DNA of 32,827 nt from positions 1 to 32,827 of the forward strand of contig JAJFFL010000258.1 of assembly GCA_021776705.1 (NCBI GenBank), given 5' to 3'. Positions 24,513-31,016 of the stretch are shown here, in pieces (positions within the stretch are counted from its first letter, which is position 1; the number at the start of each line of letters is the position of its first letter). This stretch comes from Alphaproteobacteria bacterium. Its GTDB lineage: Bacteria > Pseudomonadota > Alphaproteobacteria > Caulobacterales > Maricaulaceae. The position numbers were made by a program, and so were the translations under genes. The notes under the pieces were generated by a model. That model was not told where the DNA came from and searched no databases. It was given only the letters and a program-made list of their open reading frames with translations.

Positions 24513-25283
24513 CTAGAACGCCCACACGTCCATCGCCAGGGCGCCGTGGGTGAAGCTGGCGTGGCGGCGCTCGGCTTGGCGCAGATCGCCGGCGGAAAGC
24601 GCGGCGATCAGCGGCGTAAAGTGCTCCGGAGTCGGATGGTTGCGCGCCGCCTGCGGAGCCGAACGCCAGTCGAGCAGAGCGTCGAGGTCGCCGGCGGCGA
24701 GACGCGCCGCCGCCCAGTCGGCGAAGTCGCGCGCGAAGTTCGCGACCGGCGCGTCTTCGGGCGTGCGCAGGCTGTCGCGCAGGGAATGGGTGAGCGAGCC
24801 GGAGCCGACGATTTGAACGCCGTGATCCGCCAGCGGCGCAAGCGCGCGGCCAAGGCGCGCGGCGTCGGCCGCGTCGCCGCCGGCCGGCAGAGCGATCTGA
24901 ACCACAGGCGTGTCGGCGTTCGGCCGCATCAGGCTCAGAGGAATCCAAACGCCGTGGTCGAGTCCGCGACGCGCGTCGGCGACCGCATCAATGCCGGCCG
25001 CGGCGAGTTGACGGACGATTTCGCCGGCCAGCTCCGGGTCGCCGGGCGCCGGATAGGTCATGGCTTCAAGCTCTGGGCCGAACCCCCAAAAGTCGTGGAC
25101 CGTTTCCGGCGTCGGGCTCGCCGTGACGCCGACCGGCGTGGCCTCCCAATGCGCCGACACAACCGCGTAGGCGCGGGGCGAAGTGTCGGCGGCCAAGCTT
25201 TCAAGATGCGCGCGCGCCGCGCTGGCGCCTGTGGCCAAGGTTGGAGCCCCATGGCCGAGAAAAAGAGGACGAAGCTGAGACAT
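24513..25283 (-). CDS. LigB/DODA-type extradiol ring-cleavage dioxygenase family protein
   Basis: LRPLFLGHGAPTLA, AYAVVSAHWEA, VHDFWGFGPELEAMTYPAPGDPELA, RGLDHGVWIPLSLMRPNADTPVVQIAL, GSGSLTHSLRD. Confidence 0.92.
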   Translation of the reverse strand: MSQLRPLFLGHGAPTLATGASAARAHLESLAADTSPRAYAVVSAHWEATPVGVTASPTPETVHDFWGFGPELEAMTYPAPGDPELAGEIVRQLAAAGIDAVADARRGLDHGVWIPLSLMRPNADTPVVQIALPAGGDAADAARLGRALAPLADHGVQIVGSGSLTHSLRDSLRTPEDAPVANFARDFADWAAARLAAGDLDALLDWRSAPQAARNHPTPEHFTPLIAALSAGDLRQAERRHASFTHGALAMDVWAF

Positions 25284-25289
25284 GGCGGA

Positions 25290-25348
25290 CACTCTTTAAG
25301 TTGCGTGCTGTCGTCCTATTTGAGCAATTCCAAATTCGACTTAAAGTG
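25290..25348. promoter_or_regulatory. Nested inverted repeats in the LysR/dioxygenase divergent region
   Basis: CACTcTTTAAGT (25290-25301) against ACTTAAAGTG (25339-25348); inner ATTTG (25318-25322)/CAAAT (25331-25335). Confidence 0.5.
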
Positions 25349-25387: not shown

Positions 25388-26290
25388 ATGGACCGCATCG
25401 AGGCTATGCGTCTGTTCGCCGCCGTCGCCGAACACGGCGGCTTCACCCAGGCGGCGCGGCGCGAGGGCGTGTCGCCGGCGCAAGTGTCGAAGAAGGTCGC
25501 CGCGCTCGAATCCTTGCTCGGCGCGCGGCTCCTCGACCGCACCACGCGTTCCGTATCGCTGACCGCCGCGGGCGCGGCCTACCTCGAAGGCGCGCGGCCG
25601 CTGCTCGCCGACCTCGACGCGCTGGAGGACGGGGTGCGCGCTGAACACTCCGAGCCCGCCGGCGCCCTGCGAATTTCCGCCCCGCTGACGTTCGGGACGC
25701 GGCGCTTGATGCCGGTCGTTCTGGCGTTCTTGAAGGCGCACCCAAACGTTGAGGCGCGCCTGTCGCTGTCCGACCGCATGGTCGATCTCGTACTGGAAGG
25801 CTTCGACGTCGCGGTGCGCATCGGCCGGCTCGACGATTCAAGCCTGATCGCGCGCCGCCTGGCGCCCGCCAAGGTGGCGCTGGTGGTCAAGGCGGGGCAT
25901 CCGGCCGAATCGATCGTGTCGCCCTCCGACCTCGAAAAGTACACCTGCGTCATCGACACCAATGTGCCGTCGCCGCGCCGATGGACGTTTGAAAAGAACG
26001 GGTCGGTGGAGGAAGCGCACGTGTCCGGCGGGCTGCACGTCAATTCGGCGGACGCGGCGCGGTGCGCCGCGCTGGAGGGCTACGGCGTAATCCTGGTCCC
26101 AACGTTCGTAATCGGCGAGGACGTGGCCGCCGGGCGGCTGACGCGGCTGTTGTGCGACTGGACGCCGGAGCACCGCGACATCTGGGCGGTGTTTCCGCAA
26201 AACCGCTTCTTGTCAGGGCGCGTGCGCTTGTTCGTCGATCACCTCGCCGAGGCGTTCGGCCCGGAACCGGAGTGGGACGAGGGGCTTTAG
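25388..26290 (+). CDS. LysR family transcriptional regulator
   Basis: MDRIEAMRLFAAVAEHGGFTQAARREGVSPAQVSKKVAALESLLGARLLDRTTRSVSLT; substrate-binding domain follows. Confidence 0.95.
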   Translation: MDRIEAMRLFAAVAEHGGFTQAARREGVSPAQVSKKVAALESLLGARLLDRTTRSVSLTAAGAAYLEGARPLLADLDALEDGVRAEHSEPAGALRISAPLTFGTRRLMPVVLAFLKAHPNVEARLSLSDRMVDLVLEGFDVAVRIGRLDDSSLIARRLAPAKVALVVKAGHPAESIVSPSDLEKYTCVIDTNVPSPRRWTFEKNGSVEEAHVSGGLHVNSADAARCAALEGYGVILVPTFVIGEDVAAGRLTRLLCDWTPEHRDIWAVFPQNRFLSGRVRLFVDHLAEAFGPEPEWDEGL

Positions 26291-26806: not shown

Positions 26807-27184
26807 TCAGCGCCAGCCGCGCCGCTCTTCGCCGCCGCCGCCCTTGCCGTCGAGCGCGCCGAGAATTTTCTCGATCGCGTTGTCGGTGCCGAGCGCGGAG
26901 CGGCGGGCGTGCGAGTGGACTTCGCGCACCACCTGCTCGTAATCGAGGCCCTGACCGTTGGAGGCTTGGGCGAGTTCTTCCTCGGTGAGGTTCTCCAACT
27001 CGCGGCCTTCGGTGTCGGAGATCACCAGATTGGCGGTCGAGGCGGTGGCGTCGACGACGACGTTGAAAGCGTCGGCTTCAAAGGCGTACGCGTGCTTGCC
27101 CGGACCCTCGGTCCATTCGACGGACCCGGACAAGGTCTGCGCATGGATCTTGTCGATCAGCTTTTTGGTCAGATCGTGAATCAT
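26807..27184 (-). CDS. Uncharacterised 125-aa protein in dcm/vsr operon
   Basis: ATG at 27184 overlaps the vsr stop (ATGA); MIHDLTKKLIDKIHAQTLSGSVEWTEGPGKHAYAFEADAFNVVVDA. Confidence 0.7.
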   Translation of the reverse strand: MIHDLTKKLIDKIHAQTLSGSVEWTEGPGKHAYAFEADAFNVVVDATASTANLVISDTEGRELENLTEEELAQASNGQGLDYEQVVREVHSHARRSALGTDNAIEKILGALDGKGGGGEERRGWR

Positions 27185-27666
27185 CGCGCGGTTCTCCCGG
27201 GTCGCGGTTTCTTCTGGCTTAACCCGACCTGTCGTTTGGATAAAGCCGTCTCGCCAGTGCGGCCGAGGAATGCGCCGATTCGCCCCGCGAAATCCTCGCG
27301 CTTGAGCTCGCACTCCCACAGCGTCAGGGCGCGCCAGCCCTGGGATTCAAGCGCCGCGAGGGCGTGCGCGTCGCGCGCCTTGTTGCGGGCGATCTTGTCG
27401 CGCCAATAGGCGGCGGTGGTTTTGGGGGCGCGGGCGCCGCGCCGACAGTCGTGGCCATGCCAAAAGCAGCCGTGGACGAAAATCACCGCCCGGCGGCCCG
27501 GAAACACCAGATCCGGCGAGCCCGGCAAGTCCCTGCGGTGCAGCCGGAATCGGTACCCCAGGGCGTGCGCGAGCTTGCGCACCTGGATTTCCGGCTTGGT
27601 GTTCTTGCCCTTCACCGCGGCCATCACCGCCGAGCGCTTGTCGGGCGTAAAGACGTCGTGGCTCAT
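27181..27666 (-). CDS. vsr: Very short patch repair endonuclease (Vsr)
   Basis: MSHDVFTPDKRSAVMAAVKGKNTKPEIQVRKLAHALGYRFRLHRRDLPGSPDLVFPGRRAVIFVHGCFWHGHDC...LTLWECEL. Confidence 0.95.
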   Translation of the reverse strand: MSHDVFTPDKRSAVMAAVKGKNTKPEIQVRKLAHALGYRFRLHRRDLPGSPDLVFPGRRAVIFVHGCFWHGHDCRRGARAPKTTAAYWRDKIARNKARDAHALAALESQGWRALTLWECELKREDFAGRIGAFLGRTGETALSKRQVGLSQKKPRPGRTAR

Positions 27667-28859
27667 GGCTCCCAGGTACCGCGCCAGGCGCGGAAACCCA
27701 AGGTCGCGCGTCCGGCGAGCGTCGCGCGCATCACGCCGCCGATCAGCGGCAGCTTGCAGGCGAGGCCGAGAAACGCGTCGCGCATGAGGCCGACGGCGCG
27801 GCTGTTCGACTGGAACACCGGCGTCAGGATCCAGGACATGAATTGATAGAACCGGGTGTGGGCCGAGCGCGCGCGCGCGTAGGCGCGAAGCGCGGCGGGC
27901 AAGGCGTGGACCGTCGCGCCCGGGCCGACGGCGCGCGCCAGCTCCAGCGCGTCGAGCAGGGCGAGGTTGGCGCCTTGGCCGAGTTGCGGACTCATGCCGT
28001 GCGCCGCGTCGCCGATCAGCACCACCCGTCCCCGGCGCCACGGCCGCGCCGCGACGTTGCGGTATTCCGCCTCGGCAAGAGTGCGCATGTCGGTCAGGCC
28101 GTTGAGCAGGGCGGCGGCGTCCGGCCACAAGGCGGCGACGTCGGCGCGCAGCGCCTCGATCCCGGCGGCGCGCGCGGCGGCGAAGTTTTCGCGGCGCACG
28201 GACCAGAAGAAGGAGACGTGCCTGGCGTCCTCCGCGCCCGGCGCGGCGCCGACCGGGAGGACGCCGATCATGATCGCGGCGCCGTCGTAGACTTGCGCCA
28301 AGGTTCCGTCCCAGCGCCCGGCGGTGTCCGGACGGATCGTCCACAAGGCGCCCCAGGGGTAGAGCGGCGCGCGGGCGTTCGGGACGACGCGGTCGCGCAA
28401 CGTCGACGCCGCGCCGTCCGCGACCACGATCAGATCGGCGGGCGCGCGGTCGCCGTCGGCGAAGACGCAGGCGGGGGCCTCGGGATCGCCGACATCGACC
28501 ACCTTGCGGCCGCACGCGACGCTCACGCCGGCGCCGCGCACGGCGTCGTGGAGGGCGTCAAACAGGATCGCGCGATGGACCCCAACGCCGTGCGCGCCTT
28601 CGTAGCCGAGGTCGAGCACGGCGCGGCCCGCCGGCGTGCGGCCGAGGAGCCGGCGCACCGGCGCGCCGCGCGCCGCGACCTGATCGCGCAGGCCGAGGGC
28701 GTCGAGCGCCGCAAGTCCGGTCGGCTGCATCAAGAGACCGGCGCCGAGCGGGCGCGCCGCGGCGAATTCTTCGTGGATGACGACGTCGTGGCCGCCGCGT
28801 CGCAGCGCCAGGGCCGCGGCCATGCCGCCGATCCCGCACCCGACGACGGCGATCTTCAC
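27663..28859 (-). CDS. FAD-dependent monooxygenase (UbiH/salicylate hydroxylase-like)
   Basis: MKIAVVGCGIGGMAAALALRRGGHDVVIHE, DLIVVADGAASTLR, GRVVLIGDAAHGMSPQLGQGANLALLDALELA; GTG start; ATGA overlap with vsr. Confidence 0.92.
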   Translation of the reverse strand: MKIAVVGCGIGGMAAALALRRGGHDVVIHEEFAAARPLGAGLLMQPTGLAALDALGLRDQVAARGAPVRRLLGRTPAGRAVLDLGYEGAHGVGVHRAILFDALHDAVRGAGVSVACGRKVVDVGDPEAPACVFADGDRAPADLIVVADGAASTLRDRVVPNARAPLYPWGALWTIRPDTAGRWDGTLAQVYDGAAIMIGVLPVGAAPGAEDARHVSFFWSVRRENFAAARAAGIEALRADVAALWPDAAALLNGLTDMRTLAEAEYRNVAARPWRRGRVVLIGDAAHGMSPQLGQGANLALLDALELARAVGPGATVHALPAALRAYARARSAHTRFYQFMSWILTPVFQSNSRAVGLMRDAFLGLACKLPLIGGVMRATLAGRATLGFRAWRGTWEP

Positions 28860-28863
28860 CGCG

Positions 28864-30030
28864 TCACGCCGCGGCTTCGGCCGGCGCCTCGGCGAGCAGG
28901 GGCTCGATCAGGGTGGCGGCGAGCCAGCGCACGACCGGGGCCGCCAGGCCGTCGCCGGTGACCGACAGGGCGGCGGTCGCGCCGTCGGGCAGCGCATAGT
29001 CGTCCGGCAGGCCCATCAGGCGCGCGGTCTCGCGCGGCGTCAGGACCCGGGAACGGATATCGCCGTCGTCGCACACGAACAGAAATTGCCGGCTCGAGCC
29101 GCCGGCCGGGGTGCGCAGGCAGCCGGCGAGGCCGTCGAAGCGCGCCTCGACCCGCTGCACCCGTTCGCCGTTTTCGACCCGCATGCGCCGGAACGCGGCG
29201 CCGACCCGGCGTTCGCCGGCGGCGCGCGCCGCCTCGAGGCGTTCGCGGTGCAAGGGCGCCATCAGCGAGATCAGGCGCCGGGTATCTTTCTTGGCGTGCC
29301 AGAGACTGTCGGGCACGTCGTCGTCGAGCACGTCGATCAAGGCCGTGTTGCGCGCCGGCGGTTCCGGCGTCCGCCACCACACCCAGCCGGCGCGGAGATT
29401 TTTCGGCAGGCGCTTGACCGCCGCCGCGACCGCGGAGGTGCGCCCGAACGCCGGCGGCGCGTCGCGATCCAAAAGGTCGCCGCCGACGCCGAGATCGGCG
29501 GGCGCCGAGCCGCGCACGGCGACGAAGAACAGGCGCGGGCGCGACTGCGGCAGGAAGCGCGCGGCGTCGAGTTCCAGCGCGCCGTAGGTCCAGCCGGCGT
29601 CGTGCAGGCAGGAGACGATTTCGCGGAAGTCGTGGCCGCCGTTCGACGTCAGCACGCCGGAGACGTTCTCCAGCACCACGACGCGCGGGCAGCGGCCTTC
29701 GGCGCGCAGATCCTCCATCAGGCGCCAGAACCCGTAGAAGGTCCCGGAGCGCTCGCCGCCGAGGCCTTCGCGGCGGCCGGCGAGCGACAGGTCCTGACAG
29801 GGAAACGACGCCCAAGCGAGGTCGGCGGTCCCGGGCAACTGGTCAGCCTGGACGTCCCACACGTCGCCTTGGTGGAAGTCTTCGCCGCCGAAGTTCAATC
29901 GGTAGACGGCCGCCTTTTTCGGGTCGAGATCGTTGGCGAACAGGCACGCCCACCGCGGCCCGAGACCGAGCCGCGCCATCCCGCCCCCGGCGAAGAATTC
30001 GTAGAAGGTGTGACGTGATCGGCCGCGCAT
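28864..30030 (-). CDS. dcm: DNA (cytosine-5-)-methyltransferase
   Basis: FYEFFAGGGMARLGLG (motif I), ASFPCQDLSLAG (motif IV), VVLENVSGVL (motif VI), QSRPRLFFVAV (motif VIII), RVLTPRETARLMGLPDDY. Confidence 0.95.
   Translation of the reverse strand: MRGRSRHTFYEFFAGGGMARLGLGPRWACLFANDLDPKKAAVYRLNFGGEDFHQGDVWDVQADQLPGTADLAWASFPCQDLSLAGRREGLGGERSGTFYGFWRLMEDLRAEGRCPRVVVLENVSGVLTSNGGHDFREIVSCLHDAGWTYGALELDAARFLPQSRPRLFFVAVRGSAPADLGVGGDLLDRDAPPAFGRTSAVAAAVKRLPKNLRAGWVWWRTPEPPARNTALIDVLDDDVPDSLWHAKKDTRRLISLMAPLHRERLEAARAAGERRVGAAFRRMRVENGERVQRVEARFDGLAGCLRTPAGGSSRQFLFVCDDGDIRSRVLTPRETARLMGLPDDYALPDGATAALSVTGDGLAAPVVRWLAATLIEPLLAEAPAEAAA

Positions 30031-30110: not shown

Positions 30111-31016
<906 letters not shown>

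Follow-up and report, generated by a model that had tools for sequence, protein, structure and literature searches.

Why should a gene for a flavin-dependent hydroxylase lie between a dcm-type DNA methyltransferase gene and vsr, a gene for very-short-patch mismatch repair? The question is raised by a 32,827-nucleotide stretch of DNA, referred to below as the window, which is one whole contig (JAJFFL010000258.1; C177) of the 2.87-Mb, 322-contig draft genome of an alphaproteobacterium of the family Maricaulaceae (GCA_021776705.1). For the flavin adenine dinucleotide (FAD) monooxygenase, abbreviated here as FMO, the initial annotation offered three explanations: modification of DNA bases, a defence or anti-defence role, or a passenger gene. 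The last of these is favoured, in the form of an independent metabolic enzyme presumably co-transcribed with its neighbours, and the first two are not. The locus is probably a solitary Dcm-Vsr operon that houses a co-transcribed flavin hydroxylase with a separate metabolic role, kept there by vertical descent. Its genes are arranged as follows.

28864-30030, minus strand: dcm, a solitary dcm-type DNA (cytosine-5) methyltransferase of 388 amino acids (PF00145, 2.2e-40; TIGR00675, 3.6e-38).
27663-28859, minus strand: FMO, 398 amino acids, GTG start, with the fold of group A aromatic or heterocycle hydroxylases (PF01494, 1.3e-27).
27181-27666, minus strand: vsr, a very-short-patch repair mismatch endonuclease of 161 amino acids (PF03852, 1.1e-33; TIGR00632, 1.2e-43).
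26807-27184, minus strand: a 125-amino-acid protein, which has only the N-terminal domain of the Caulobacterales family to which it belongs.

The coordinates bear out the tight packing described for these four genes: a gap of 4 bp separates dcm from FMO (28863-28860), and ATGA overlaps of 4 bp join the stop codon of FMO to the start of vsr (27666-27663) and the stop codon of vsr to the start of the 125-amino-acid frame (27184-27181). Short gene overlaps are common in compact GC-rich operons, and the weight therefore rests on recurrence of the arrangement. The motifs of dcm, FMO and vsr are intact. The dcm product scores above the cut-offs of PF00145 and TIGR00675, resembles M.HhaI in a PDB search and shows the PCQ and ENV motifs of C5-cytosine methyltransferases together with QSRPR, while the vsr product has the Vsr fold, aligns to E. 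coli Vsr (1cw0) at 1.1e-24 and retains the catalytic E/D/H/H/D positions. Judging from family membership and these motifs, Dcm would methylate the cytosine of a short motif and, where deamination of 5-methylcytosine (5mC) has produced a T:G mismatch, Vsr would nick the T, as their E. coli counterparts do. The E. coli operon likewise has vsr after a solitary gene for a 5mC methyltransferase, with ends that overlap or nearly overlap, but lacks what is found between the two here: FMO and, in Caulobacteraceae, a cysteine synthase-like gene in addition. The earlier observation that the window holds no restriction endonuclease stands for the operon genes and the ten other window genes scanned, a search whose reach is this one contig.

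The arrangement is not peculiar to this strain. Gene positions in the compared loci were taken from tblastn and a retrained gene caller. Among 60 relatives, FMO adjoins vsr in two other Maricaulaceae genera (genomes G033 and G021; G035), and in a third genus of the family (G002) dcm and FMO are adjacent before the contig ends. The same cluster is present in Oceanicaulis, as seen in a scan of one genome per species, which also indicated Maricaulaceae as the family of the window. The gene order is dcm-FMO-vsr in Maricaulaceae and dcm-cysK-FMO-vsr in Caulobacter and Phenylobacterium. In a 249-genome sample of the order, every one of the 14 best FMO matches adjoins dcm, vsr or both, and none of the 83 other FMO matches does. 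The spacing was measured in 22 loci of the two families with both genes: FMO and vsr share 4 or 7 bp, or stand 7 bp apart, in every locus but L252, which has the order dcm, vsr, FMO with overlaps of 4 bp. A strain-specific insertion of FMO was rejected, as the arrangement recurs in two families. A linked dcm-vsr pair is found in 89 of the 249 genomes, only 13 of which have a close FMO beside it, and dcm and vsr overlap directly by 4 bp where FMO is missing (L081, L084, L287 and L288). In Caulobacteraceae, a gene for a cysteine synthase-like pyridoxal phosphate enzyme (PF00291) lies between dcm and vsr (L102, 5002-5985; L101, 5016-5996; L106, 5016-5996; and other loci of the family). Since it occurs there with or without FMO, the interval has acquired metabolic genes more than once. 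No description of the FMO/vsr arrangement was found in the open-access papers searched.

The history of the linkage was read from FMO and dcm trees, both of which are quick maximum-likelihood searches without bootstraps. The FMO tree has 117 rows, and all 26 rows near dcm or vsr, which include one duplicate of the window, fall inside one clade of 29 (Shimodaira-Hasegawa-like approximate likelihood ratio test support, 95). This clade splits into a Maricaulaceae branch and a Caulobacteraceae branch, plus L100, and its three unlinked members all belong to Maricaulaceae. The linkage label changes 3 times on the tree, against 23.7 changes expected from shuffles. Neither dcm nor vsr was found in flanks of up to ~6 kb around the outgroup FMOs, which come from Reyranella, Legionella, Kangiella, Lysobacteraceae, Myxococcota and Planctomycetota. 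It had been proposed that grouping with ordinary hydroxylases found elsewhere would speak against a special link; this holds in part, since the linked FMOs all fall in one clade, which is itself nested in a broad family found elsewhere without nearby dcm or vsr. The dcm tree broadly tracks organism families, and FMO presence changes on it 15 times, with 7 changes forced by well-supported branches. Given the single origin seen in the FMO tree, these changes are best read as repeated loss of FMO. The dcm-FMO-vsr association is old, mostly vertical and not obligate. FMO would have entered the interval once, no later than in an ancestor shared by the linked lineages of Maricaulaceae and Caulobacteraceae, and would have stayed there by vertical descent, aided by a probable translational coupling to vsr.

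Two side observations concern dcm in Caulobacter. Between L257/L141 and L131, the synonymous divergence (dS) of dcm is 1.23, and that of FMO and vsr is 0.15 and 0.28, respectively, which suggests that the methyltransferase alone has been replaced and that dcm can be exchanged separately. In another locus (L111, 3628-4785, minus strand), a divergent dcm with 49% identity stands beside FMO-vsr on the opposite strand, a rearranged form of the slot.

FMO can be separated from dcm and vsr. One Maricaulaceae slot, bounded by genes for a Fur-type regulator, a thioesterase-like protein, a tetratricopeptide repeat protein and a lipoprotein, and often accompanied by a LysR gene, occurs in several states: dcm-FMO-vsr (L095, L250 and L075), FMO alone (L079 and L080), dcm-vsr without FMO (L081) and dcm alone (L270, L272, L273 and L274). 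In L096, FMO has no upstream dcm, and the contig ends just after FMO. The two genomes with FMO alone (G015 with L079 and G029 with L080), both ~100% complete, retain an intact FMO despite the absence of dcm, which was not found genome-wide at E<=1e-10; no vsr was found in G015, and G029 has only a vsr of 48% identity at another place. Conversely, no FMO of any kind was found in G013, G004 or G003 at E<=1e-10, and G199 and G010 carry only a distant type (39-42% identity). The clearest loss is seen in Caulobacter G160, whose dcm is 95-98% identical to that of FMO-bearing loci; the spacer that elsewhere leads into FMO goes straight to vsr, so that FMO has been lost cleanly from the slot, and only distant homologues (31-32%) occur elsewhere in the genome. 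The obligate co-occurrence with a methyltransferase that is expected of a DNA-base-modifying oxygenase is therefore not observed. Because FMO is lost while dcm-vsr stays and is kept where dcm or vsr is gone, FMO and dcm-vsr are neither jointly required nor jointly lost, and neither depends on the other.

The protein itself resembles enzymes of small-molecule metabolism. FMO carries the GxGxxG, DG and GDAAH motifs on an FAD_binding_3 fold, as group A monooxygenases (PF01494) do, and its AlphaFold2 model has a mean predicted local distance difference test (pLDDT) score of 95.4. The top Foldseek matches of this model are MHPCO, 3-hydroxybenzoate 6-hydroxylase (3HB6H), the urate hydroxylase HpxO and the tropone monooxygenase TrlE, all over the full length with template modelling (TM) scores of ~0.74-0.81, and 6-hydroxynicotinate 3-monooxygenase ranks first in a profile search. 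FMO shares PF01494 and the GxGxxG, DG and GD motifs with these enzymes, but is only 21-28% identical to them, falls below the NCBIfam cut-offs and has its own distinctive and conserved LTPxFQS segment at 345-351. All the listed NCBIfam matches to named equivalogs (urate, salicylate, 3-hydroxybenzoate and ubiquinone hydroxylases and others) are below cut-off, the best among them scoring 160 bits against a cut-off of 372, and a substrate assignment via a curated family was rejected for this reason. Known group A hydroxylases act on small molecules in a buried pocket. Across 98 relatives, conservation reaches 90% or more at 56 FMO positions, among linked members and unlinked ones alike; W173, Q189, F218-W219-S220, Y266 and T346-P347..Q350 are among those outside the nucleotide-binding motifs and presumably line the substrate pocket. 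A difference between the linked and unlinked groups was seen at only 5 positions, and unlinked FMOs from within the clade share the linked residue at almost every one of these. Because the invariant residues do not follow linkage, the comparison suggests that FMO kept its substrate on joining dcm-vsr. The ratio of non-synonymous to synonymous substitution rates of FMO in close pairs is 0.11-0.25, similar to that of dcm and vsr, which indicates purifying selection and not decay.

Gene neighbourhoods point in the same direction. In L103, L105, L109 and L114, FMO is the last gene of an acyl-CoA-type cluster (thiolase, MaoC and SDR), and these clusters, like the LysR and LigB-type dioxygenase genes near the operon in the window and in Oceanicaulis, fit small-molecule metabolism and fix no substrate. 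From the family, fold and conserved residues, NAD(P)H would reduce the FAD of FMO, which would form a C4a-hydroperoxide and hydroxylate a small aromatic or N-heterocyclic metabolite. Since the fold is like those of hydroxypyridine, 3-hydroxybenzoate and urate hydroxylases and the invariant residues are common to relatives from other phyla that lack dcm and vsr in the vicinity, FMO is best read as an aromatic or heterocycle hydroxylase with a function of its own, and not as a DNA-base modifier or a defence gene.

Two observations weigh against such independence. The position right before vsr, with overlapping codons, persisted through the divergence of two families, beyond what is expected of a random passenger. 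The linked FMOs are also somewhat more basic, with an isoelectric point of 9.75 against 8.63 for unlinked ones, a difference that would be compatible with nucleic-acid contact and does not demonstrate it.

Long retention might alternatively be explained by hitch-hiking through addiction, in which loss of the methyltransferase is costly while Vsr stays, and a gene between the two is held in place even if its benefit is only slight. In Caulobacter crescentus, vsrA makes loss of scmA costly, which shows how a nuclease resembling Vsr can stabilise a methyltransferase that is solitary (PMC12907096); this provides a possible reason why a gene between dcm and vsr would be kept. ScmA/VsrA, which comes from the same order of bacteria, resembles the present pair in its functional tie between a solitary 5mC methyltransferase and a Vsr-like nuclease; it differs in that scmA and vsrA are unlinked, VsrA is a DUF559 protein and no monooxygenase is mentioned (PMC12907096). 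On account of the first two differences, ScmA-VsrA was rejected as the same locus, and any extension to a TIGR00632-type Vsr would be indirect. FMO does lie between dcm and vsr, so that a deletion removing it together with an adjacent gene disrupts the pair; cysK occupies the same interval in Caulobacteraceae, and addiction would account both for the long persistence of FMO and for its being cleanly lost by itself now and then. On the other hand, dcm persists without a slot vsr in G004, G199 and G010, and hitch-hiking of this kind is considered unlikely.

It is quite improbable that FMO is a working partner of Dcm-Vsr, hydroxylating 5mC, either within DNA or once freed as a base or nucleotide, or else a compound arising from its deamination or turnover, with translational coupling matching the level of FMO to that of Vsr. 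The conserved position and overlap in two families, the single origin of linkage and the slightly more basic character of linked FMOs would agree with such a role, and so would the fold match to HpxO, which hydroxylates a purine-like base, urate. However, FMO is retained in genomes without dcm and lost where dcm-vsr remains, its family-wide conserved residues are unaltered by linkage, no dcm or vsr lies in the examined flanks of its relatives from Legionella, Myxococcota and Planctomycetota, and known group A hydroxylases have a buried pocket for small molecules.

A bacterial flavin-dependent oxidation step encoded in the dcm-vsr operon, acting on 5mC or its deamination or repair product (within DNA or as free base or nucleotide), with a related free pyrimidine as the substrate where dcm is absent, is very improbable. 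Any direct part of FMO in 5mC chemistry would need to be dispensable to FMO and to dcm-vsr alike. A search of the open-access literature for a link between vsr and a monooxygenase or for flavin-dependent 5mC oxidation found nothing relevant.

A defence or anti-phage cassette, with Dcm labelling the cell's own DNA and FMO or the 125-amino-acid protein as the effector, can hardly be entertained: PADLOC methyltransferase models including DruM2 match dcm, as expected of any such methylase, but PADLOC scans of 14 window proteins (the operon and ten others) gave no defence partner and weak motif-level matches only, the chromosomal slot is conserved with vertical descent and not island-like turnover, and FMO has no PHROGs match at E<=1e-5.

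The fourth gene of the operon has no Pfam, NCBIfam or PHROGs match, and a phage origin of this gene or of FMO was rejected for want of a PHROGs match. Homologues with 26-37% identity occur in 11 further genomes within the set of relatives. The co-occurrence with vsr that had been raised for this gene proved partial: the family adjoins vsr in the window, in G003 and G020 within the relatives set and in G256 outside it, and is encoded elsewhere in most genomes. The 125-amino-acid protein is a short, tail-less member; the others mostly have long acidic or proline-rich tails, many of which end in FNPW-like or PFGxKK-like motifs. Caulobacterales members (L063-L071, L211 and L065) consist of a conserved N-terminal domain and very long acidic or proline-rich tails, with a short aromatic C-terminal motif in many, and two scanned members gave no Pfam match. 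The AlphaFold2 model of the 125-amino-acid protein has a pLDDT of 89.7, and identification by fold was rejected as no PDB match was obtained at E<=0.001. The gene is treated here as a chromosomal neighbour that abuts vsr in this lineage, its family usually being encoded elsewhere.

Three further genes of the window lie outside the operon.

25388-26290, plus strand: a LysR regulator (PF00126/PF03466), a landmark of the slot outside the system.
24513-25292, minus strand: a protein of the LigB family (extradiol dioxygenase-like), encoded next to the LysR gene (PF02900, 1.1e-31), also a landmark.
30111-31016, plus strand, divergent from dcm: a stand-alone EF-G fragment of 301 amino acids with domains III, IV and V and no GTPase domain.

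A LysR gene is also a neighbour in the Oceanicaulis, G223, G015, G029 and G010 loci, and the LysR neighbours are 49-51% identical in L250, L251, L079, L080 and L273. The LigB-family neighbour is 58% identical in L095/L251 and is found in Oceanicaulis as well. The EF-G fragment is ~55% identical to full-length EF-G of relatives. Another EF-G match, with a long frame, lies elsewhere in the same genome (C2), and 40 relatives showed no clear counterpart of the short stand-alone form.

Collectively, conserved order and overlapping codons hint at a functional link between FMO and dcm-vsr, whereas the pattern of presence and absence at one slot argues against it. The case calls for caution, as operon neighbourhood alone cannot name DNA-modifying enzymes. 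These loci form a natural collection in which to ask if a dcm-vsr pair stabilises an unrelated gene located inside it.

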